Positions 1,766-15,923 of a DNA stretch of 22,924 nt are shown here, in pieces (the stretch's first letter is position 1; the number at the start of each line of letters is the position of its first letter). The translations under genes and the position numbers were made by a program. This DNA is from a virus. The notes beneath the pieces are model-generated. The model was not told the origin of the DNA, made no database searches, and saw only the letters and a program-made list of their open reading frames with translations. The DNA is taken from positions 1-22,924 of IMG/VR virus record IMGVR_UViG_3300017739_000123. The stretch is one strand, 5' to 3'.

Positions 1766-1795
1766 TAATTTATTATGAATTAATTTATTATGAAT
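1766..1795 (+). repeat. 15-bp perfect tandem duplication over a start codon
   Basis: TAATTTATTATGAAT occurs twice in direct succession, at 1766-1780 and 1781-1795. Each copy contains an ATG. The first ATG (1775) meets TAA after one further codon; the second (1790) opens the restriction-like gene. The duplication lies at the left border of the restriction-modification pair. Confidence 0.9.
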
Positions 1796-2353
1796 TTATA
1801 TCTTGATGAGAATTTGAAACCATTAATAGAATCAATCAAACCAAAATATTCAGAAAGTTATATTTTGGAGGCATTTGAGTTAAAACGTATATCCTCTCAG
1901 TCATTTTTGATTTCAGTTGGTAATCAATTAGAGAATTTTTGGAATAAAGTAATTAGTGATAGTGAGAGAAATAATAATTTAATTGAAGAAGATAACATGG
2001 TTGATGTAGAAGGTAAATTAAGGCAAGTTGATCATTTTTTTGATATTGATGGAGAAATTAAACAATATCTTGAGAGTAAATGTAATTTAAACTTTGATAG
2101 TGAAAAGATTAAAGAATCAAATAGAAAAGTAGGACAAGTTAAAGATGCTTTAGGTGCAGATCATGGTGCATATTTTGTTCCTATAGTTAGAGATATTGAC
2201 CAAAAAGATTTAACCAAGTATAATAATAAAGGATTAGATGTTTATGGTGTTAGATGGTTACTTAGTAAAGTTGATGCACAATTTACAGAAGATGATTACT
2301 TTAATTATTTGAAAGATGTTATTGCACCTATTCTTGAAGAAAAAGGTTTATGA
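1790..2353 (+). CDS. Probable type II restriction endonuclease (PD-(D/E)XK fold)
   Basis: 187 residues. The central segment has the layout of a PD-(D/E)XK nuclease: VEGKLRQVDHFF with candidate metal ligand D81, then YLESKCNLNFDSEK with E95-S-K97 as the (D/E)XK element, and a helix beginning NRKVGQV. That E-x-K-x-N-x-N-x-D pattern is one I associate with type II restriction enzymes. The strongest support is context: the stop overlaps the start of a D12-class adenine methyltransferase by 4 bases, the classic arrangement of a restriction-modification pair. No clear Shine-Dalgarno precedes ATG 1790. The recognition site cannot be read from sequence. Alternative: another phage PD-(D/E)XK nuclease protected by the methyltransferase. 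Confidence 0.65.
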   Translation: MNLYLDENLKPLIESIKPKYSESYILEAFELKRISSQSFLISVGNQLENFWNKVISDSERNNNLIEEDNMVDVEGKLRQVDHFFDIDGEIKQYLESKCNLNFDSEKIKESNRKVGQVKDALGADHGAYFVPIVRDIDQKDLTKYNNKGLDVYGVRWLLSKVDAQFTEDDYFNYLKDVIAPILEEKGL

Positions 2354-3138
2354 AACCAGTTATTAAGTATCAAGGAGGGAAGACAAAAGAACTTCCTATT
2401 ATTAAACAATTAGCACCACAATACAAGAGGATTGTTGAACCCTTTTGTGGTGGTTCTGCTGTATCATTAGACTATGAGAATTATTGTGTATTAAATGATG
2501 TAAATGATGCTGTAATTAATTTGTATAAAGTTATAGGTAGTGAGGATTATTCTACTTTACAAAATAGAATTAATGAAATCAAGTGTTATGAGCATGATGA
2601 ATTATCAGAAATATATTATTCATCAAGAAATATTATTAACTCACCAGATGATTATACACAATTAGAGTGGGCAATAGCATATATTGTTGTTAGACAGTTG
2701 TGTTTCTCAGGAATGGAAAGATATAATAAGAATGGACAATTTAATGTTCCTTATGGTCATTATAAGAAAATGTCTTGTAGTTTATCCCCTAAACATCATC
2801 AATTCTTTAAAGAAAAAGTAACATTATCTAATAATGATGCTATCTCTATTATTACACAATGCAATGAAGATGATTGGATATTCTTAGATCCACCATATTT
2901 GGGTAGATTAGGTTATACTCAAGGAGATGGTGGATTGGATTTACATAACAGATTAATTGAAGCAATGAAAGTAACAAAATCTAAATGGTTATTTGTTCAT
3001 TCTGATTGTGAATTTTATCGTGAAAATTTATCTGAATTTAATATAATAACCAAAAACTTTAAATATATGCAAAACTTTGGTAAAGGAAAAGATCATTCTG
3101 GTTCTGAAGTTAAGCATCTTTACATTATGAATTACTAA
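2350..3138 (+). CDS. D12/Dam-type DNA N6-adenine methyltransferase
   Basis: 262 residues, about the usual length for the Dam (alpha) class that transfers a methyl group from S-adenosylmethionine to N6 of adenine. Motifs appear in class order: KYQGGKTKELP at 6-16, the SAM-binding PFCGGSAVSL at 31-40, NGQFNVPYG at 128-136 (as in Dam and its relatives), and the catalytic DPPY at 180-183. The product ends at a natural point. It overlaps the nuclease gene by 4 bases (ATGA) and is followed by an intrinsic terminator, so the two form a closed cassette. It probably protects DNA from the neighbouring nuclease. Target specificity cannot be told from sequence; GATC is plausible but unproven. Confidence 0.9.
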   Translation: MKPVIKYQGGKTKELPIIKQLAPQYKRIVEPFCGGSAVSLDYENYCVLNDVNDAVINLYKVIGSEDYSTLQNRINEIKCYEHDELSEIYYSSRNIINSPDDYTQLEWAIAYIVVRQLCFSGMERYNKNGQFNVPYGHYKKMSCSLSPKHHQFFKEKVTLSNNDAISIITQCNEDDWIFLDPPYLGRLGYTQGDGGLDLHNRLIEAMKVTKSKWLFVHSDCEFYRENLSEFNIITKNFKYMQNFGKGKDHSGSEVKHLYIMNY

Positions 3139-3159: not shown

Positions 3160-3171
3160 AACACACTACCG

Positions 3172-3205
3172 AAAGGGGCTTGACTATTCAGCCCCTTTCC
3201 TTTAT
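3172..3205 (+). terminator. Rho-independent terminator after the restriction-modification pair
   Basis: A perfect 9-bp stem, AAAGGGGCT (3172-3180) with AGCCCCTTT (3190-3198), with a 9-base loop, followed by a pyrimidine-rich tail CCTTTAT. It lies 34 bases after the methyltransferase stop and should end the transcript of the cassette. Confidence 0.75.
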
Positions 3206-4750: not shown

Positions 4751-5091
4751 TGAAAAGATACATTGTTGAAACGCTAGAAATGACTCAAAACTTCTATGTT
4801 ATCGAAGCCGAGAGTGATCAAATCGCTAGAGAGATTTCTCAATACGCTTCCGACAACTGGCACAACACTTTACAGACAACTCATGTAAGTTGTAACGAAT
4901 TAGACGAAGATTATCTTAAATATTTGCAAAAAAAACAATATTGGAATGATATTACGACTTCATATAATGAAGTTCGCACAAACTATTATGAAGATTATGG
5001 CATACAATCAAATTCATACAAAATGTCAAGTGTAAATCATGCCTATTCGTATCAGAATGACTATTTTTCAACTCTAAATAAAGTTTTGTGA
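4750..5091 (+). CDS. Small Tyr/Asn-rich phage protein, unknown function
   Basis: 113 residues from ATG 4750, preceded by GAGGAG at 4735-4740. It starts with a beta-alpha-beta-like segment (MKRYIVETLEMTQNFYVIEA, then ARE(I)SQYASDNW) and then becomes tyrosine- and asparagine-rich with low complexity. Marine phages often carry short proteins with this N-terminal pattern, but I cannot name a family. It overlaps the next gene by 4 bases. Confidence 0.6.
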   Translation: MKRYIVETLEMTQNFYVIEAESDQIAREISQYASDNWHNTLQTTHVSCNELDEDYLKYLQKKQYWNDITTSYNEVRTNYYEDYGIQSNSYKMSSVNHAYSYQNDYFSTLNKVL

Positions 5092-5624
5092 ATCTACCCA
5101 ATAAAAAGTATCAAATTATCTATGCCGACCCGCCTTGGTCATATCGAGACAAAGCATCCGCAGGAAAAAGAGGCGCTAGTTTTAAATATGATGTACAAGA
5201 TAAAGATTGGATTTCTAATTTACCCGTTCGGGATATTGCTGATGATAATTGCGTTTTGTTTATGTGGGTTACCATGCCACAATTACCAATTGTATTTGAA
5301 ATAATAGAAAAATGGGGTTTTGTATATAAGACTTGTGCCTTTACATGGGTGAAACGAAATAAAATAAAGCCTACATGGTTTATGGGCATGGGAAACTGGA
5401 CAAGATCTAATTCTGAATTATGCTTACTAGCAACAAAAGGTAAACCTAAGAGAGTAGATGCAAGTATATTAAGTGTGATTGATACCCCAATAGAAAGACA
5501 CAGCAAAAAACCCGATATTGTACGGGATCATATTGTTGCCTTGTGTGGGGATTTACCTAGAATAGAACTGTTTGCTCGACAAACGGCTCACGGTTGGGAT
5601 TCTTGGGGAAATGAAGTTCCATAG
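5088..5624 (+). CDS. MT-A70-family DNA adenine methyltransferase
   Basis: 178 residues beginning at GTG 5088, in a GTGA overlap with the previous stop. IIYADPPWSYRDK carries the family's catalytic DPPW at 14-17; LFMWVTMPQLP, KTCAFTWVKRNK, GMGNWTRSNSELCLLATKGKP and the C-terminal HSKKPD...IELFARQTAHGWDSWGNE follow in the order seen in phage and bacterial MT-A70 enzymes. They methylate N6 of adenine, in bacteria and phages usually in DNA. No nuclease gene is next to it, so it is an orphan enzyme, likely protecting phage DNA from host restriction or marking it. Confidence 0.88.
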   Translation: MNLPNKKYQIIYADPPWSYRDKASAGKRGASFKYDVQDKDWISNLPVRDIADDNCVLFMWVTMPQLPIVFEIIEKWGFVYKTCAFTWVKRNKIKPTWFMGMGNWTRSNSELCLLATKGKPKRVDASILSVIDTPIERHSKKPDIVRDHIVALCGDLPRIELFARQTAHGWDSWGNEVP

Positions 5625-5629
5625 ACTTT

Positions 5630-5818
5630 ATGCACACACCGAAAACGCCAATAGCTGATTCGATTCTTAAAATTATGTCTGTACTTTTATGGGTGATGAT
5701 ACTATCATCTATAGGTATAATTTGTTTGACGTTATTGTGTGGTTTTGTAGCCGTATCGTTTGTTACTCTTGATATAAATTATGATTGGTCTTGGATGTTA
5801 TCCATAAGCAAAACTTGA
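5630..5818 (+). CDS. Small hydrophobic membrane protein
   Basis: 62 residues with two closely spaced hydrophobic stretches (about 12-28 and 30-47). ATG 5630 has no convincing ribosome site; ATG 5675 is an alternative that would leave a single short hydrophobic protein. The 3' end overlaps the 3' end of the opposing Fe-S gene by 21 bases, and the terminator for this strand lies just beyond, inside that gene. Function unknown. Confidence 0.45.
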   Translation: MHTPKTPIADSILKIMSVLLWVMILSSIGIICLTLLCGFVAVSFVTLDINYDWSWMLSISKT

Positions 5819-6220
5819 ACCACACCCACAAGTAGATGTTGCTTGTGGGTTTCTTATTACAAATGATGAACCATTTAAAGGATCATCTTTATAATCAATC
5901 TCTGCACCCATCACATACTGATAACTCATAGCGTCAACAACCACACTTGCACCATGAGCCTGAACATTAGTATCATCATCATCTAATTCTTCAGCAAACG
6001 CAAAACCATATTGAAATCCAGAACAACCACCACCTTGAACAAATATTCTGAGCCCTGTGGCATTTTTCTCATCACTCACTAAAGATTTAATTTGTTTTGC
6101 AGCCGATTCTGTTACATGAAATGGGTCTGGTGCTTTATCAGCCGTGTCTGTATTAGCAAAGTCTAATAAAGCATCAGCATCAGACTTTTCTTCTTTTTTT
6201 CTAAACAGTTGAGTAAACAT
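5798..6220 (-). CDS. A-type Fe-S cluster carrier (HesB/IscA/ErpA family)
   Basis: 140 residues. The family core (about 34-140) is complete, with all three cluster-binding cysteines: C66 in VQGGGCSGFQYGF, and C131 and C133 in STCGCGSSF at the C-terminus. Such proteins carry [2Fe-2S] or [4Fe-4S] clusters to target apoproteins. A ~33-residue charged N-terminal extension (RKKEEKSDAD...) is unlike bacterial IscA and may be a docking segment. It is one base from the cytochrome c gene and presumably co-transcribed with it. A-type carriers occur in many marine T4-like phages; their virion or host role is not established. Confidence 0.92.
   Translation of the reverse strand: MFTQLFRKKEEKSDADALLDFANTDTADKAPDPFHVTESAAKQIKSLVSDEKNATGLRIFVQGGGCSGFQYGFAFAEELDDDDTNVQAHGASVVVDAMSYQYVMGAEIDYKDDPLNGSSFVIRNPQATSTCGCGSSFAYG
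5824..5859 (+). terminator. Intrinsic terminator inside the Fe-S gene
   Basis: Perfect 9-bp stem ACCCACAAG (5824-5832) with CTTGTGGGT (5842-5850), 9-base loop, followed by TTCTTATT on the + strand. It lies just after the last + strand gene of the left block and should stop rightward transcription there. The same bases encode part of the C-terminal Cys region of the opposing Fe-S gene. Confidence 0.7.
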
Positions 6221-6541
6221 TTATCTTTTTGCCTTCTCTAAATATGCAGCTAGATTTTCTATATCTTTATCTGATAAAGACTTTGCTATCATTATCATCA
6301 ATGCAGAGTTTGGTCCTATCTCTTCACCTGCTCTATATTTTTTTAATCTATCTTTTGTATATTCTACATCTTTACCTGATACTTTCGGAAAACTTGCCAT
6401 GCCCATACCAGCAGGCCCATGGCATTGCTTACAATTCATCTTAAATTTCATCTCGCCGATTTTTGCATTACCTCCAAAAGCTGGTAAACAAAAAGCAACA
6501 AACAAAACAATTAAAAAGTTAATTAAATATACTCTTTGCAT
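6221..6541 (-). CDS. Secreted class I cytochrome c
   Basis: 106 residues. An N-terminal signal peptide (1-~23, MQRVYLINFLIVLFVAF) is followed by a single haem attachment site CKQCH at 37-41, the HGPAGMGM loop, and a C-terminal helix DKDIENLAAYLEKAKR. Met82 or Met84 in SALMIMIAKSLS is the likely sixth haem ligand. This is the layout of small periplasmic cytochromes c (c553/c5-like) that shuttle electrons between complexes. A strong AAGGAG lies six bases before the start. Haem attachment would rely on host Ccm machinery. A c-type cytochrome in a phage genome is uncommon; it may support host respiration during infection (inference). Confidence 0.88.
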   Translation of the reverse strand: MQRVYLINFLIVLFVAFCLPAFGGNAKIGEMKFKMNCKQCHGPAGMGMASFPKVSGKDVEYTKDRLKKYRAGEEIGPNSALMIMIAKSLSDKDIENLAAYLEKAKR

Positions 6542-6542
6542 T

Positions 6543-6857
6543 TTATCTCCTTAGCACGTTCATTACTGATGGACAACCAAAACCAGGTCCAACATTATTA
6601 TTTTCAACTCTATACTCTCTTTTACGAGTCTTTTTGTTGAACTTCAATGGACACCTATATATACAGTTAAAACCACCATCATCTCTTTTTTTTCTCTCTG
6701 TTATATAACAGTTGATAGAATCTCTACGAGCCCTCTCTCTTTCTATTTTTTGTTTACGTTCTCTCTTCTTTGCTTCTACTGGATCTATACCTCTTGGTGG
6801 TGGCACAGCATCAACAGAAAAACTAAACATGAGTAAAAGTAAAAAAATTATTTTCAT
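6543..6857 (-). CDS. Secreted basic cysteine-containing protein
   Basis: 104 residues with a clear signal peptide (about 1-17, cleavage after SVDA), a strongly basic helix (EAKKRERKQKIERERARRD), and a C-terminal part with four cysteines (50, 65, 69, 95) that could form two disulphides in the periplasm. The start overlaps the stop of the glycine-rich gene (TAATG). I do not recognise the family. Its place between the adhesin-like gene and the cytochrome suggests an exported phage factor. Confidence 0.65.
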   Translation of the reverse strand: MKIIFLLLLMFSFSVDAVPPPRGIDPVEAKKRERKQKIERERARRDSINCYITERKKRDDGGFNCIYRCPLKFNKKTRKREYRVENNNVGPGFGCPSVMNVLRR

Positions 6858-9652
6858 TAATTAATGAAGTACCCTTCTGCGCCCGAGCCAAATTCAAATT
6901 TATCATAAGAAATAATTACAATACCAGATCCCCCAGAACCTCCTACGTCTGCTTGAGATCCACCTGGACCATCTCTATCTGTACCTCCGCCGCCACCGCC
7001 AGTATTTGCAGTACCAGCACCACCTAAACCAGGACCGGCTGGATTTCCTGTAAATCCGGGAGCTGCTGGTGGTGAACCGCCTTTTCCTCCGCCACCGATT
7101 CCGCCAAGACCAGCATTTTTTCCTAAAGCAGGTCCTCCGCTACCACCAACTCCTGGTGAGCCAGAACAACCACCACCACCAGCGTATGCTTTATAAGAAC
7201 CTGATATAGAGAATGACATACCATCACCACCTTTACCTTGATTATCATTAGGTTGTGTAGGTGCGAGTGAAGAGGGAACATCTTGCGAACCATAACCCGC
7301 CCCCGCTTGAGATGCACCACCACCCCCACCACCAGATCCATAATCAACTGCTTGACTATTACCTCCAGGATTTCCCTGACCATAACCTTGTTGAGAGTTT
7401 TGTAAACCAAGACCACCATTTGTGCTAGTGCCCGGTCCTCCTGATGCACCACCTCCGTTTCCGCCACTAAACCCGTGACCATCATTGTAAGATGCACCGC
7501 CACCGCCTCCCATACCTACAAAAGTAAATGCGGAAGAGTTTGTGCCGTTACCACCTCTAGTACCAGCATTTCCTGATCCACCTGCACCTACTGTGATTGT
7601 ATATGGTGATCCAGCTGTAACAGGGTGACCAGAGATAAAGACTAATCCTCCTGCACCACCACCAGCACCGTGGTCACTACCACCACCGGCGCCACCGCCA
7701 GCAACAATTAGAAAGTCTACATTCATGTTTCTATTTGGTGTGAAAGTACCAGAACCAGATGGGTTTGCAAATGTGTGAACTACTTTTTCTTCGGAGAAAG
7801 TTATGATACCACCAGTAGCTGCATCAGTAGCAGCTGTGTTTATTTTTGAAGCGCTGCCCAAAGCATATTGTTCTTTTGAATACTTGACAATGACAATTCC
7901 TGGCCCGCCAGCGCCACCGACTTGAGAATTACCGCCACCACCTCCGCCACCGCCGGTATTAGTACCGGCAGCTACGCCTGCCCCTGATGGAGCTCCACCT
8001 GCACCGCCACCACCAATACCACCACCTCCAGGAGGCCCTGATACACCACCTCCGCCGCCACCGCCACCAGCGTATGCAGTTACCGTTCCTTCAAAACTAA
8101 AATAAACTCCATCGCCACCTTCACCAGGTTTACCAGAAGCTCCATCAGCACCACGACTACCCGCTCCACCACCACCGGCAGGTCTACCACTCGCTGGCGC
8201 ATTACCACCAGGAAATCCTTGACCATCTGTGCCAGCTCCAGCATTTAGAGGGCCATTATAACCGCCACCTCCTCCTGAGCCGCCTTCTTCACCATTACCA
8301 TGAGCGCCTAAGTTGTAACCACCACCCCCACCACCTCCTCTTTCAGCATAAAAGGTGTGAGCAAAACCTGAATTTGACCCATTTGCACCGGTAGCTGATG
8401 CAGTACCAGGACTAGCGCCAGCACCACCTACACCAATTGAGACATTTGAACCATCAGATGGAGCAGTTAAACCTTTGATGTAACGAACACCGCCAGCTCC
8501 ACCCCCACCTCCATGACCGTTTCCTCCACCGCCTCCACCTGCAACAATTAAAACTTCACACTCAATATCTTGAGGTGGTGTAAATGTGCCATGACTTGTA
8601 AAGACGTGGAAACCATAACTATTTGATGTTGTTTTTGTACCGCCAGTAGCACTTGTAAATACGTTTGTTTTAGCCACATCTGATTGAAGTGTAACATATC
8701 TTAATATTACAATACCGGAACCTCCAGCACCACCTGCAGCCTGTGGCGGACCTGAATCAGTACCACCACCGCCGCCGCCACCTCGATTAACCGAAGCAGC
8801 TGAACCTGTGTTAGTTCCTGGAAAATTAGGGCCGCCTCCGTTACCACCCCCACCAGCGCCACCTAAACTTCCTGGTCTTGCAGCTGGGGCTTGTGAACCT
8901 CCGCCACCTCCTCCGCCAGCGTAAGAGGTATCTGCACCTGAAATTGTACTATTAGACCCTACCCCACCATCACCAGCTCTGTAAGGCGTGCCATTTCGTC
9001 CTGGTCCTCCAGCACCTCCGCCGCCACCAGCCATAGTATAAGTCGAATTATCAGAAACACCATCACCGCCAGCGTGACCTTCGGATTGAGCGTATCGACC
9101 TTTATTTCCAGGACCACCAGAGAGCCAAGGTGTTGGGTTTGAAGTCCCATCTCCTCCACCAGAACCACCACCAGAACCGCCAGAATGTCCTACTGCTCTG
9201 TATCTACCTCCGCCACCGCCCGATGACATAATTGTTGCGAAACTTGAATTAGTACCGTTTGCACCAACGCCTGTGCCAGCTGACCCACCTGCACCTCCGC
9301 CACCAACTGTTACATTATAAGTTGAACTAGAGTCAACTTCAATAAAACCTTCACGAAATCCTCCAGCACCTCCGCCACCACCAGCAGATCCACCGCCAGC
9401 GCCACCACCAATTACAAGATATTCTACTGTGCCAGTAAAACTTGGATCAAACGTGCCAGATGATGTATATGTATGAACTGTAAAATTATTTGTAGAGTCT
9501 ACAGTTTTAGCACCACCAGATGTGCTTGTAGCTGCATTAGTAGATGGTACACCACCACTACCAATTATACCAAAAGATAAACCTGTAGGGTATTGATAAC
9601 CTTCTGGCCTCCCAATTGTCTGTTCAGTAAATAATTTAAATTGATCACCCAT
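6857..9652 (-). CDS. Giant glycine-rich adhesin/tail-fibre-like protein with three modules
   Basis: 931 residues, extremely rich in Gly, Ala and Ser. After a ~45-residue head the protein is three similar modules, about 47-320, 337-591 and 612-917. Each opens with a GTF-(D/T)P turn and a strand ending EYLVIGGG, EVLIVAGG or DFLIVAGG, carries long polyglycine runs, and closes with GSGIVILRY, GPGIVIVKY or GSGIVIISY. This is the pattern of phage glycine-rich domain proteins; polyglycine-II sandwiches form the receptor-binding tip of T-even gp38 adhesins. Virion adhesion or tail-fibre tip is thus the best inference. The base composition is much more GC-rich than its neighbours because of glycine codons. 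Confidence 0.85.
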   Translation of the reverse strand: MGDQFKLFTEQTIGRPEGYQYPTGLSFGIIGSGGVPSTNAATSTSGGAKTVDSTNNFTVHTYTSSGTFDPSFTGTVEYLVIGGGAGGGSAGGGGGAGGFREGFIEVDSSSTYNVTVGGGGAGGSAGTGVGANGTNSSFATIMSSGGGGGRYRAVGHSGGSGGGSGGGDGTSNPTPWLSGGPGNKGRYAQSEGHAGGDGVSDNSTYTMAGGGGGAGGPGRNGTPYRAGDGGVGSNSTISGADTSYAGGGGGGGSQAPAARPGSLGGAGGGGNGGGPNFPGTNTGSAASVNRGGGGGGGTDSGPPQAAGGAGGSGIVILRYVTLQSDVAKTNVFTSATGGTKTTSNSYGFHVFTSHGTFTPPQDIECEVLIVAGGGGGGNGHGGGGGAGGVRYIKGLTAPSDGSNVSIGVGGAGASPGTASATGANGSNSGFAHTFYAERGGGGGGGYNLGAHGNGEEGGSGGGGGYNGPLNAGAGTDGQGFPGGNAPASGRPAGGGGAGSRGADGASGKPGEGGDGVYFSFEGTVTAYAGGGGGGGGVSGPPGGGGIGGGGAGGAPSGAGVAAGTNTGGGGGGGGNSQVGGAGGPGIVIVKYSKEQYALGSASKINTAATDAATGGIITFSEEKVVHTFANPSGSGTFTPNRNMNVDFLIVAGGGAGGGSDHGAGGGAGGLVFISGHPVTAGSPYTITVGAGGSGNAGTRGGNGTNSSAFTFVGMGGGGGASYNDGHGFSGGNGGGASGGPGTSTNGGLGLQNSQQGYGQGNPGGNSQAVDYGSGGGGGGASQAGAGYGSQDVPSSLAPTQPNDNQGKGGDGMSFSISGSYKAYAGGGGCSGSPGVGGSGGPALGKNAGLGGIGGGGKGGSPPAAPGFTGNPAGPGLGGAGTANTGGGGGGTDRDGPGGSQADVGGSGGSGIVIISYDKFEFGSGAEGYFIN

Positions 9653-12304: not shown

Positions 12305-12739
12305 ATGCCACAAGAAAAATTATATTCCGAAATATTTGATGAGTTTGAACAACTACCATCAAGAAAAGAACGTGTTGAATTTTTAAGTAAACATGGTGAT
12401 AAAGCCTTTACTACATTTTTAGAAATGGCTTTCAACAAAGACATTCAATTTGATGTAGGATCTCTACCAGACACTTATCGACCGGCACTTGAACCTGCTG
12501 GTCTAAATTACACTTATCTAAATTTAGAAGTGCCAAAGCTTTGGCGATTCATTGTTGGTAATCCTAAAAAACCAGAAGGTCTCACAGAAGAAAAACAAAG
12601 AAAGTTATTGGTTGTAATACTTGAGGCTTTACACGCTGATGAAGCCAAACTCTTTGTAAATATGTTCGCAAAAGATTTAAAAGTTAGATACCTTACACCA
12701 AAATTAGTGAAAGAGGTTTTCCCTCATTTGAATATATGA
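12305..12739 (+). CDS. Conserved T4-like phage protein (DUF6433-like)
   Basis: 144 residues. The pattern LYSEIFDEFEQLPSRKERVEFL, then helical repeats, KLLVVILEALHADEAKLFVNMF and a C-terminal LTPKLVKEVFPHL is shared by a protein of T4-like marine phages that usually sits next to RNase H or core replication genes; I recall it as DUF6433. The function is unknown. It is all-helical with no membrane segment. Spacing to RNase H is one base, and the stop overlaps the next start by 4 bases. Confidence 0.7.
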   Translation: MPQEKLYSEIFDEFEQLPSRKERVEFLSKHGDKAFTTFLEMAFNKDIQFDVGSLPDTYRPALEPAGLNYTYLNLEVPKLWRFIVGNPKKPEGLTEEKQRKLLVVILEALHADEAKLFVNMFAKDLKVRYLTPKLVKEVFPHLNI

Positions 12740-13155
12740 AAATAGTTGTAGTGTCTGGTGGTTTTGACCCTATACATTCTGGTCATTTAGCATACTTTAG
12801 AGAAGCCAAAGAGTTAGGTATGTATCTAATTGTTGGTGTCAATTCTGATGAATGGTTGATGAGAAAGAAAGGTTATGTTTTCATGCCGATAGAAGAGCGT
12901 GAAGAGATTATTAAAAGTATCAAATATGTAAATGGTGTTAATCGTTTTAATGATGATGACGATTCCTCAATTGACTTACTAAACAAAGTAAAATACTGGT
13001 ACCCTAGTGATGAAATAATATTTGCAAATGGTGGTGACCGTAACGAGTCAAACTGTAGGGAGTTATCTGTAGAGGGTGTTGAATTTGTTTATGGTGTCGG
13101 TGGCACCGATAAGAAAAATTCTTCATCAGAAATCGTAAAGAAAGTGAGAGCATGA
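12736..13155 (+). CDS. Cytidylyltransferase-like nucleotidyltransferase
   Basis: 139 residues with the class signature VVSGGFDPIHSGHLAYF (HxGH at 14-17), a central MPIEEREEIIKSI segment typical of the fold, a GGDR element, and NSSSEIV near the end in the position of the ISSTxI motif. Relatives are HldE C-terminal domain, TagD and phosphoethanolamine/glycerol-phosphate cytidylyltransferases, which activate a sugar- or alcohol-phosphate with CTP or ATP. The substrate cannot be deduced. It starts a five-gene coupled run of sugar-nucleotide and glycosyl enzymes. Confidence 0.88.
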   Translation: MKIVVVSGGFDPIHSGHLAYFREAKELGMYLIVGVNSDEWLMRKKGYVFMPIEEREEIIKSIKYVNGVNRFNDDDDSSIDLLNKVKYWYPSDEIIFANGGDRNESNCRELSVEGVEFVYGVGGTDKKNSSSEIVKKVRA

Positions 13156-13958
13156 AAGTAGCTATAGTTACACCATCAATAGGTCAAGAAACTCTAACAC
13201 AATGTTTACTCTCTGTGCAAAAACAAGAATATGAAGATATAGTACATTATGTTTTTATTGATGGTTATGAGCATAAAGAGAGTGTTATAAATCAAATGGC
13301 CTTAAAAACTGGATCAGGCACTTTAAAACCTTTTGAAGATAAGAAAGTGCCTATCAAAACAGTTACACTAGAAGAGAATGTTGGTAAAGGTTGGTATGGG
13401 CATAGAGTATATTCTGCCTGTTCTTTTCTTGTAAATGCTGATGCAATATGTTATCTTGATGAAGATAACTGGCTTGAGCCAGATCACGTTAAAAAATTAG
13501 TGGAGAAATTGAACAATGGAAATCAATGGGCTTATTCATTACGCAAAATCTATGATCAAGAGGGTAATTATGTATGCGAGGACAACTGTGAGTCGCTTGG
13601 TAAATGGCCTGTATACTTTGATGATAAGGTACATCACATTGATACCTCATCTTATATTATTAGGCGTGATATTGCTATTGGTATCGGTCATGCTTGGTAT
13701 GGCCAATGGGGTGCAGATAGACAATTCTTCCACAACCTGAGACAAAACTTTCCTAATTTCGATTGCACAAATAAACATACCGTATGTTATCGTTTAGATA
13801 ATAATACAGGTAAAGGCGAATCAAATCCAAATTCAGTTAATAAAGACTTTTTCATAGAAGGTAATAAAGCACAAAAGGAAAAGTATGATACGATACATTT
13901 TCCATGGAAAGAAACAACTTTAGCCAAAGTCGCACCAGGAATATCAATTATAGAATGA
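13152..13958 (+). CDS. Family 2 glycosyltransferase-like protein
   Basis: 268 residues with a GT-A fold outline: MKVAIVTPSIGQETLTQCLLS at the nucleotide-binding start, VFIDGYEH, ENVGKGWYGHRVYSAC, and CYLDEDNW (D103-E-D105) as the metal-binding DxD. A later GQWGADRQFF block is a plausible acceptor/catalytic region. It would transfer a sugar from a nucleotide-sugar donor. It overlaps both neighbours by 4 bases, so it is made with the nucleotidyltransferase and epimerases. Targets could be virion proteins, DNA modifications or host surface glycans. Confidence 0.82.
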   Translation: MKVAIVTPSIGQETLTQCLLSVQKQEYEDIVHYVFIDGYEHKESVINQMALKTGSGTLKPFEDKKVPIKTVTLEENVGKGWYGHRVYSACSFLVNADAICYLDEDNWLEPDHVKKLVEKLNNGNQWAYSLRKIYDQEGNYVCEDNCESLGKWPVYFDDKVHHIDTSSYIIRRDIAIGIGHAWYGQWGADRQFFHNLRQNFPNFDCTNKHTVCYRLDNNTGKGESNPNSVNKDFFIEGNKAQKEKYDTIHFPWKETTLAKVAPGISIIE

Positions 13959-14458
13959 ACTTAAAACTTACAGAATTAGCCGGTGTTTTGCTCATAACAC
14001 CACCAGTTACATTTGAAGATTTCAGGGGTACGAATACTGAAAACTGGAATAAGAAAAAATATCGAGAGTATGGTATTGAAAATGACTGGGTATTAGATAG
14101 TATAAGCACATCAAGAAAACACGTTTTGCGTGGCATACATGGTGATGATCATACAACAAAACTCATATCTTGTTTACACGGTGATATTTACTTTGTTGTG
14201 ATCAATAATGACCCAGAGTCAAATCAATATAAGCAATGGCAATCTTTTCATCTATCAGGTGCAAATAGACAACAAGTATTAGTACCACCTAAATTTGGTA
14301 ATGCTCACCTTGTTATGTCTAAGTATGCTGTATTCAGTTATAAATTAGATGCTTACTATAATGTAAGAAGCCAATTCACAATAAAATGGAATGATGAAGA
14401 GGCACACAACATTTGGTGGCCAGTTAAAAATCCAATTACATCTTTAAGAGATTCGTGA
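13955..14458 (+). CDS. RmlC-like sugar 3,5-epimerase (cupin)
   Basis: 167 residues from ATG 13955 (ATGA overlap with the glycosyltransferase); an earlier in-phase ATG lies inside that gene and is not needed. The cupin core carries the family pattern: EDFRG at 21-25, KHVLRGIHGDDHTTKL with the likely catalytic His62 and Lys69, the HGDIYFVVIN strand, QVLVPPKFGNAHLV with His118, and FSYKLDAYY. RmlC enzymes epimerise dTDP-4-keto sugars at C3 and C5. At 167 residues it is a little shorter than classic RmlC (~180). It could act on a related deoxysugar. Confidence 0.82.
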   Translation: MNLKLTELAGVLLITPPVTFEDFRGTNTENWNKKKYREYGIENDWVLDSISTSRKHVLRGIHGDDHTTKLISCLHGDIYFVVINNDPESNQYKQWQSFHLSGANRQQVLVPPKFGNAHLVMSKYAVFSYKLDAYYNVRSQFTIKWNDEEAHNIWWPVKNPITSLRDS

Positions 14459-15390
14459 AAAAAGTTTTAATTACAGGTGGTGCAGGTTATCTTGGTAAAC
14501 ATCTTGCTAAATCTTTACATAAAGCAGGCCATGAAGTTTACTGTATTGACCGAGTAGAAGCAAATTGTAAATACTATCATCAAGAACTACAAGCTGACTT
14601 CTGTGAAAATCCGTTATCACTCTATCAGTTTTTTATGCTAGATATAGATACAGTATTTCATTTAGCTGGTCGCATAGAAGTGGGTATGTCTTGGGATTAT
14701 CCAATACATTTTTGGAAAGATAATGTTTTAGCTACAGTACATTTAATTGATATGATGAAAGAATATAATGTGCCTAATCTAATATACTCTTCAAGTGCTG
14801 GTGTTTATAAACCAAAAGAAGAATTATTGGTTGAAACTGATTCAATCGCATATAATAATCCATATGCAAACTCCAAGATAGCAGCTGAAAATGCCATTCG
14901 TGATTCTGGTATCAATCACACAATCTTCCGATTCTTCAATTTAGCTGGTGCAGATCCAGATGGTGAGATGGGTGAAGATCATCAACCAGAAACTCATATG
15001 ATACCACTACTTTTTGAAAATCTAAATAACTTCGTGATAAACGGTAATGATTATCAAACAAAAGATGGCACCTGTGTTCGTGATTATGTTCATGTATCTG
15101 ATGTTGCCGATGCTCACCTATTGGCGATGGAATATTTAAATACCTGGAAAACAGGCCAATCTGCCACAATCAACTTAGGAACTGGTGTAGGATATACTAA
15201 CTTAGAGATTGTTAATCTTGCAAAAGACATACTAGGGTTAGATATAAAACATGAATTTGGCCCTGAAAGAAAAGGCGACCCATCAAAGTTAGTCGCAAGT
15301 ATTGAATCAGCAAAAAGTTTATTAGGTTACAAACCGAAATATGACATCTCTGATATATTAAAAACTGCTTACTCATGGTACAGTAAATGA
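14455..15390 (+). CDS. NAD-dependent sugar epimerase/dehydratase (GalE-like)
   Basis: 311 residues beginning at GTG 14455 in a GTGA overlap. It is an extended short-chain dehydrogenase: NAD-binding GGAGYLG at 8-14, VFHLAGRIEVG, the SSSAGVY active-site strand (~112-118), and catalytic YANSK at 137-141. RFFNLAGADPDGEMGEDH and DGTCVRDYVHVSDVADAH are hallmarks of UDP-glucose 4-epimerase relatives. It interconverts or dehydrates a nucleotide-activated sugar for the neighbouring glycosyltransferase. Exact substrate unknown; alternatives are UDP-GlcNAc 4-epimerase or a dehydratase. Confidence 0.9.
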   Translation: MKKVLITGGAGYLGKHLAKSLHKAGHEVYCIDRVEANCKYYHQELQADFCENPLSLYQFFMLDIDTVFHLAGRIEVGMSWDYPIHFWKDNVLATVHLIDMMKEYNVPNLIYSSSAGVYKPKEELLVETDSIAYNNPYANSKIAAENAIRDSGINHTIFRFFNLAGADPDGEMGEDHQPETHMIPLLFENLNNFVINGNDYQTKDGTCVRDYVHVSDVADAHLLAMEYLNTWKTGQSATINLGTGVGYTNLEIVNLAKDILGLDIKHEFGPERKGDPSKLVASIESAKSLLGYKPKYDISDILKTAYSWYSK

Positions 15391-15923
15391 ACATAGATGA
15401 AAAAATTGATAATAAGTTTTTTGATAAGAACATACACTTTCTATCAGGTGATGTAACAACCGATTCAGTAGAAAAAATCATAAGATGGATTCTATATCAT
15501 AATCTTGATACAACAAAAAAAGAACTCACACTTTATATCAATTCTGATGGAGGCACTTTAGTTGATGCCTTTGGTGTTATTGACTTGATGCAAGCTTCAA
15601 TACATGATTTCAAAACTGTATCTGTGGGCTCATCAATATCAGCTGCCTTTTATATTCTTATATCTGGTACAAAAGGTAAAAGATATGCAGGTAAGTATTC
15701 ATCTCTTATGTGCCATCAGTTTTCAGCTGAGTGCTCTATGACTAAACACCATGACACAAGAGCTTGGGTAAAAGAAAATGATAATTTAAGTGAGAAAACA
15801 CAAAAGATATTAGAGTCTGCTGGATTACCTAAGTCATACTTCAAAAAGTTCATAGGCCCAACAGATTTTTATATGTCAACCAAAGAGGCTTTAGATTATG
15901 GTGTCATTGATAATATTTTATAG
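15387..15923 (+). CDS. clpP: ClpP-like serine protease
   Basis: 178 residues. The Clp protease catalytic triad can be placed: Ser85 in VGSSISAAFYIL (equivalent to GMAASMGAF), His110 in MCHQFS, and Asp160 in GPTDFYMSTKEALDYGVID, which is the family's C-terminal signature. LYINSDGGTLVDAFGVID is the usual substrate-groove strand. It lacks a long N-terminal propeptide. ClpP-like proteins in T4-like marine phages may act with host Clp ATPases or as a prohead-type protease. It follows the sugar genes with a 4-base overlap and ends just before a GGAG for the next gene. Confidence 0.88.
   Translation: MNIDEKIDNKFFDKNIHFLSGDVTTDSVEKIIRWILYHNLDTTKKELTLYINSDGGTLVDAFGVIDLMQASIHDFKTVSVGSSISAAFYILISGTKGKRYAGKYSSLMCHQFSAECSMTKHHDTRAWVKENDNLSEKTQKILESAGLPKSYFKKFIGPTDFYMSTKEALDYGVIDNIL

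Follow-up and report, generated by a model that had tools for sequence, protein, structure and literature searches.

The common picture of restriction-modification is of a defence that bacteria raise against phages. Among the chloroviruses, about a quarter of the methyltransferases have companion restriction enzymes, which have been proposed to break down host DNA at an early stage of infection, and the exclusion of rival viruses was found to be independent of the restriction enzymes (PMC7019647). The viral record IMGVR_UViG_3300017739_000123, a 22.9 kb fragment analysed over its full 22,924 bases (the window), carries a gene for a putative restriction endonuclease (R) that overlaps one for a Dam-family methyltransferase (M). 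We put the probability at about 0.78 that R and M form a virus-borne type II-like restriction-modification pair, in which both would act on the same site, M methylating it and R cutting unmarked DNA. This reading had been proposed in an initial annotation, and the predicted fold of R, its conserved catalytic residues and its linkage to M support it. No description of the R-M pair was found in the openly licensed literature searched.

Gene layout

The cassette comprises the following features:

1790..2353, + strand: R, putative restriction endonuclease, 187 aa (AlphaFold2, Foldseek, invariant residues, phrog_26553)
2350..3138, + strand: M, Dam-family (D12 class) N6-adenine DNA methyltransferase, 262 aa, T4Dam-like (TIGR00571, PF02086, PDB matches, T4Dam alignment)
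2350..2353, + strand: ATGA shared by the stop of R and the start of M (read from the sequence)
3171..3199, + strand: hairpin 3' of M, which may terminate transcription although its T tail is poor (RNA fold)

The open reading frames lie exactly where the initial annotation had placed two overlapping genes, at 1790-2353 and 2350-3138, with 4 shared bases. The ATGA overlap suggests that R and M are translationally coupled, and an overlap of 4-5 bases is also seen in loci L017, L018, L020, L021, L046, L047, L051, L055, L060, L063, L066, L074 and L076. Downstream of M, the segment 3139-3215 (77 nt) folds at -24.7 kcal/mol with a z of -5.6. A terminator had been said to close the cassette; a strong hairpin does follow M, but with the tail CTTTATC, and no terminator is listed by the consensus scan, whose limit the hairpin loop may exceed. 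The T4-type late promoter motif occurs in the window at a frequency below chance.

The GC content of the cassette is 27-28%, against 36% window-wide. This is nearly the lowest stretch of the window, suggesting that the cassette is acquired cargo in this lineage. The same contrast is absent in the Synechococcus phages S-CAM8 and S-WAM2.

The window also encodes an RNase H that is about 50% identical to those of Methylophilales phage Melnitz and cyanophages, a gp59-type helicase loader and a phrog_298 exonuclease, which together indicate a T4-like phage. The earlier description of this phage as lytic is consistent with the T4-like neighbouring genes, among them those for RNase H and the gp59-type loader, but a lytic lifestyle is unproven from a 22.9 kb fragment. 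The gene directly upstream of R (1205-1732, + strand) matches the Pfam 2OG-Fe(II) oxygenase family at 27.4 bits (cut-off 27) and also phrog_274, whose label 'DNA endonuclease V' is probably wrong. Positions 5798-6541 (- strand) code for a cytochrome c and an IscA-like iron-sulphur assembly protein; such genes are unusual in phages and may be a clue to the metabolism of the host. A glycine-rich protein of 931 residues, which contains repeated blocks and weakly resembles a tail fibre, is encoded at 6857-9652 (- strand). At 12736-15923 (+ strand), a run of sugar and nucleotide genes, for a cytidylyltransferase-like protein, a glycosyltransferase 2, a dTDP sugar 3,5-epimerase and an NAD epimerase, precedes one for a ClpP-like protease.

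The putative endonuclease

R has a PD-(D/E)XK core in an AlphaFold2 model built with 50 homologues (pLDDT 94.1). The order of elements is a helix (36-57), four strands (70-73, 76-79, 82-86 and 90-96), a second helix (104-121) and a further strand (125-129). D81 starts one strand, E95-S-K97 closes the next and E48 lies in the preceding helix, which is the PD-(D/E)XK layout. D81 and E95-S-K97 had been picked out from the sequence by the initial annotation; the helix residue E48 is additional. Residues E48, Q79, D81, H82, E95 and K97, among others, are invariant across the 50 R sequences. In a set of 11 diverse homologues (18-50% identity, including relatives at 18-26%) the invariant positions are S23, G44, E48, Q79, D81, E95, K97, N99, D103, K106, F129, P131 and G153. 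We infer from conservation and model that E48, D81, E95 and K97, with Q79, form the active site, and R is very probably a nuclease.

The leading Foldseek matches of R in the PDB all have the PD-(D/E)XK fold: Card1/Can2, EcoO109I, NucS/EndoMS, XisH and McrC. The best of these are not restriction enzymes but ancillary nucleases of CRISPR systems, and the TM-scores are modest (about 0.3-0.5), so that the fold of R is fixed but its family is not. A second model, from the divergent subfamily of L176 (pLDDT 80), has bunya- and arenavirus cap-snatching endonucleases, XisH, Card1 and McrC as its top matches. McrC, among the lower-ranked matches, would fit a methylation-directed R that cuts host-type methylated DNA like type IIM or type IV enzymes, with M unrelated or antagonistic. 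This is extremely unlikely, since such an R, encoded together with an adenine methyltransferase, would harm the phage itself if the two had the same specificity, and no methyl-reader domain is visible in the 187 aa of R.

Sequence searches match R to a single family, phrog_26553, over residues 1-187 of 187 (E 1.1e-78), which makes it a full-length member; the family is without annotation and its function is unassigned. No named restriction enzyme family scores above the cut-off in Pfam, NCBIfam, PADLOC or the PDB sequences, and none of the searches yields a meaningful score that would place R among non-nucleases. The best hints, PDDEXK_15, NERD and RE_TdeIII, are weak, inconsistent and confined to one or two members. 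Plasmids yielded no relatives of R, and neither did a pattern-based scan of representative genomes of bacteria and archaea, a scan that may miss distant relatives; within the searches made here, the family is seen only in phages. The dN/dS of R is mostly 0.05-0.3, with values below 1 in both R and M, and R is under purifying selection.

The methyltransferase

M is a full-length member of the Dam family TIGR00571 (E 7.8e-48; 163.5 bits against a curated cut-off of 114.85) and also matches PF02086 over its full length (E 2e-38). Among solved structures its nearest relatives are the DpnII, E. coli and T4-type Dam enzymes, with PDB matches to the DpnII methyltransferase 2dpm (E 1.5e-18) and to Dam 1q0s (E 2e-15). 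The DPPY and EPFCGG motifs are present in an alignment with T4Dam, and the initial assignment to the D12 class of adenine methyltransferases with its class motifs stands. The segment FSGMERYN of M aligns to FSNMIRIN of T4Dam, so that the FSxMxRxN residues, whose contact roles we take to be those of the T4Dam and EcoDam structures, are kept. This makes GATC or a related GAT-containing site the probable target of M. The window has 46 GATC sites, 0.58 of expectation, which is not decisive for the specificity of M.

Separately from M, the window encodes a second adenine methyltransferase at 5088-5624 (+ strand). It belongs to the MT-A70 family (PF05063 E 5.2e-29; phrog_359) and has no recognised nuclease adjoining.

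Conservation of the pairing

A scan of IMG/VR for R gave 72 viral loci. M lies within 1.3 kb of R in 56 of these and within 35 bases in 51; after clustering at 95% identity, 34 of 42 R loci have M. Both gene orders occur, with M upstream of R in seven loci (L049, L050, L053, L056 and L069-L071). The divergence of R is correlated with that of M (Mantel r 0.61, p 0.0002). The pairing is not due to chance, and the conserved catalytic quartet together with the tight, order-independent linkage supports a cognate nuclease and methyltransferase. The initial annotation held that an intact pair is not common in phages, which is too strong for marine T4-like phages, where dozens of loci are found.

M is missing from the fetched stretch in 16 of the 72 loci. 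In two of those contigs M lies 8-10 kb upstream, which in one case requires that the ends of the contig join. The occurrence of R without M is mostly explained in this way, the remaining loci being fragments that end within 8-10 kb or are cut at M. One 6.4 kb contig without M (L013) has two different R genes in tandem, at 1361-1915 and 2198-2752, and another small nuclease (L044, 1407-1895; PDDEXK_11, E 1.5e-8) lies near a solitary R gene.

The cultured Synechococcus phages S-CAM8 and S-WAM2 have true homologues of R in phrog_26553 (47-64% identity). They are annotated merely as 'hypothetical protein', and each is followed by a gene annotated as 'DNA adenine methylase'.

The M family has other neighbours as well. 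Scanning with M recovers R relatives adjoining it (e.g., L168, L171, L172 and L176), and in L178 and L181 a more divergent protein with the same conserved residues as R lies beside the M relative. An HNH endonuclease directly upstream of the M relative in L182/L183 (3497-4786) makes another candidate nuclease/methyltransferase pair. In two T4-like enterobacterial phages, Salmonella phage STML-198 (L084, 1887-3346) and Klebsiella phage KP179 (L085, 1885-3337), the gene that overlaps an M relative (41-42% identity) encodes another protein, which matches Hjc resolvase weakly; this Hjc-like candidate nuclease and the Dam-family methyltransferase may be a separate restriction-modification pair. The methyltransferases closest to M of the window (70-73% identity; L154-L164, L166 and L167) are mostly without a recognisable adjoining nuclease. 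In these comparisons of gene neighbourhoods M is the stable partner and the nuclease is variable. That one M clade occurs with different nucleases, or with no nuclease, suggests gain and loss of R genes next to a Dam-like methyltransferase of phages. Restriction-modification modules tend to swap nucleases while keeping the methyltransferase.

These neighbourhoods also bear on whether R could be a phage DNA-processing nuclease for repair, recombination, or junction or nick cleavage, with M an independent anti-restriction methyltransferase and the two adjacent only through a shared operon. M is often found with no R, the putative nucleases next to M in KP179 and STML-198 are similar to Hjc resolvase, and the top folds of R include the repair and mismatch enzyme NucS/EndoMS and CRISPR nucleases besides restriction enzymes. 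However, R and M stay linked in over 50 loci, in either gene order and at identities as low as about 40%, and unrelated nuclease types also fill the slot beside M. S-CAM8, S-WAM2 and G012, the complete or longest R-bearing phage records examined, all have M. A DNA-processing role apart from M is therefore unlikely.

A real pair might also be mainly selfish, kept by addiction, since loss of M with R persisting would be harmful, and have no role against hosts or rivals. The AT-rich, insert-like composition in the window, the patchy distribution and the tandem R copies of L013 are consistent with this. Yet loss of R seems possible, given the orphan relatives of M, and a strictly lytic phage, a lifestyle unproven here, would gain little from addiction, making this explanation very unlikely.

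Proposed role

The R-M locus has several features of a type II restriction-modification system: linked but separate R and M genes, a predicted nuclease fold with conserved catalytic residues, and intact M motifs. R would be a small PD-(D/E)XK endonuclease and would probably cut as a dimer. M would methylate the adenine in the short site of R, probably GATC or a GAT-containing sequence judging from its T4Dam-type residues. During infection, M may mark newly made phage DNA, leaving unmarked DNA, that of the host chromosome and/or of competing phages, to be cut by R. By analogy with the chloroviruses, breakdown of host DNA may be given somewhat more weight than the exclusion of rivals.

A broader and more tentative proposal, for which we would give slightly less than even odds, is that R is the founding member of a restriction endonuclease family specific to phages. 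Marine T4-like phages would use it with a Dam-like methyltransferase against host DNA and/or rivals, in place of the T4 strategy of modified cytosine and denA/denB. Here it is phages that carry the putative pair, widely among marine T4-like phages and including cultured cyanophages in which it can be tested, and whether lytic phages use self/non-self DNA marking as a weapon becomes testable. R also represents a compact candidate enzyme family, unnamed in the databases searched, and many 'hypothetical protein' annotations would be corrected.

Relation to described systems

EcoO109I and other PD-(D/E)XK type II enzymes share with R the predicted core fold and the D...E-x-K catalytic layout, but have no detectable sequence homology to it (TM-score 0.37-0.48 on the query).

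M is close to the T4 Dam and DpnII-type Dam family, as a full-length member with the recognition-loop residues of T4Dam. The T4 dam gene adjoins gp56 and primase genes and has no annotated restriction enzyme partner, whereas M of the window is paired with R.

The chlorovirus pairs of the PBCV-1 group, such as CviAII, likewise consist of a virus-encoded methyltransferase and an adjacent restriction endonuclease. No chlorovirus nuclease related to R by sequence was identified. Chloroviruses have eukaryotic algal hosts and package their endonucleases in virions, while the R-M pair belongs to a T4-like bacterial virus. A virus-borne restriction-modification pair would be of a known kind, and what is new is the R family, which is without named relatives and recurs in marine T4-like phages.
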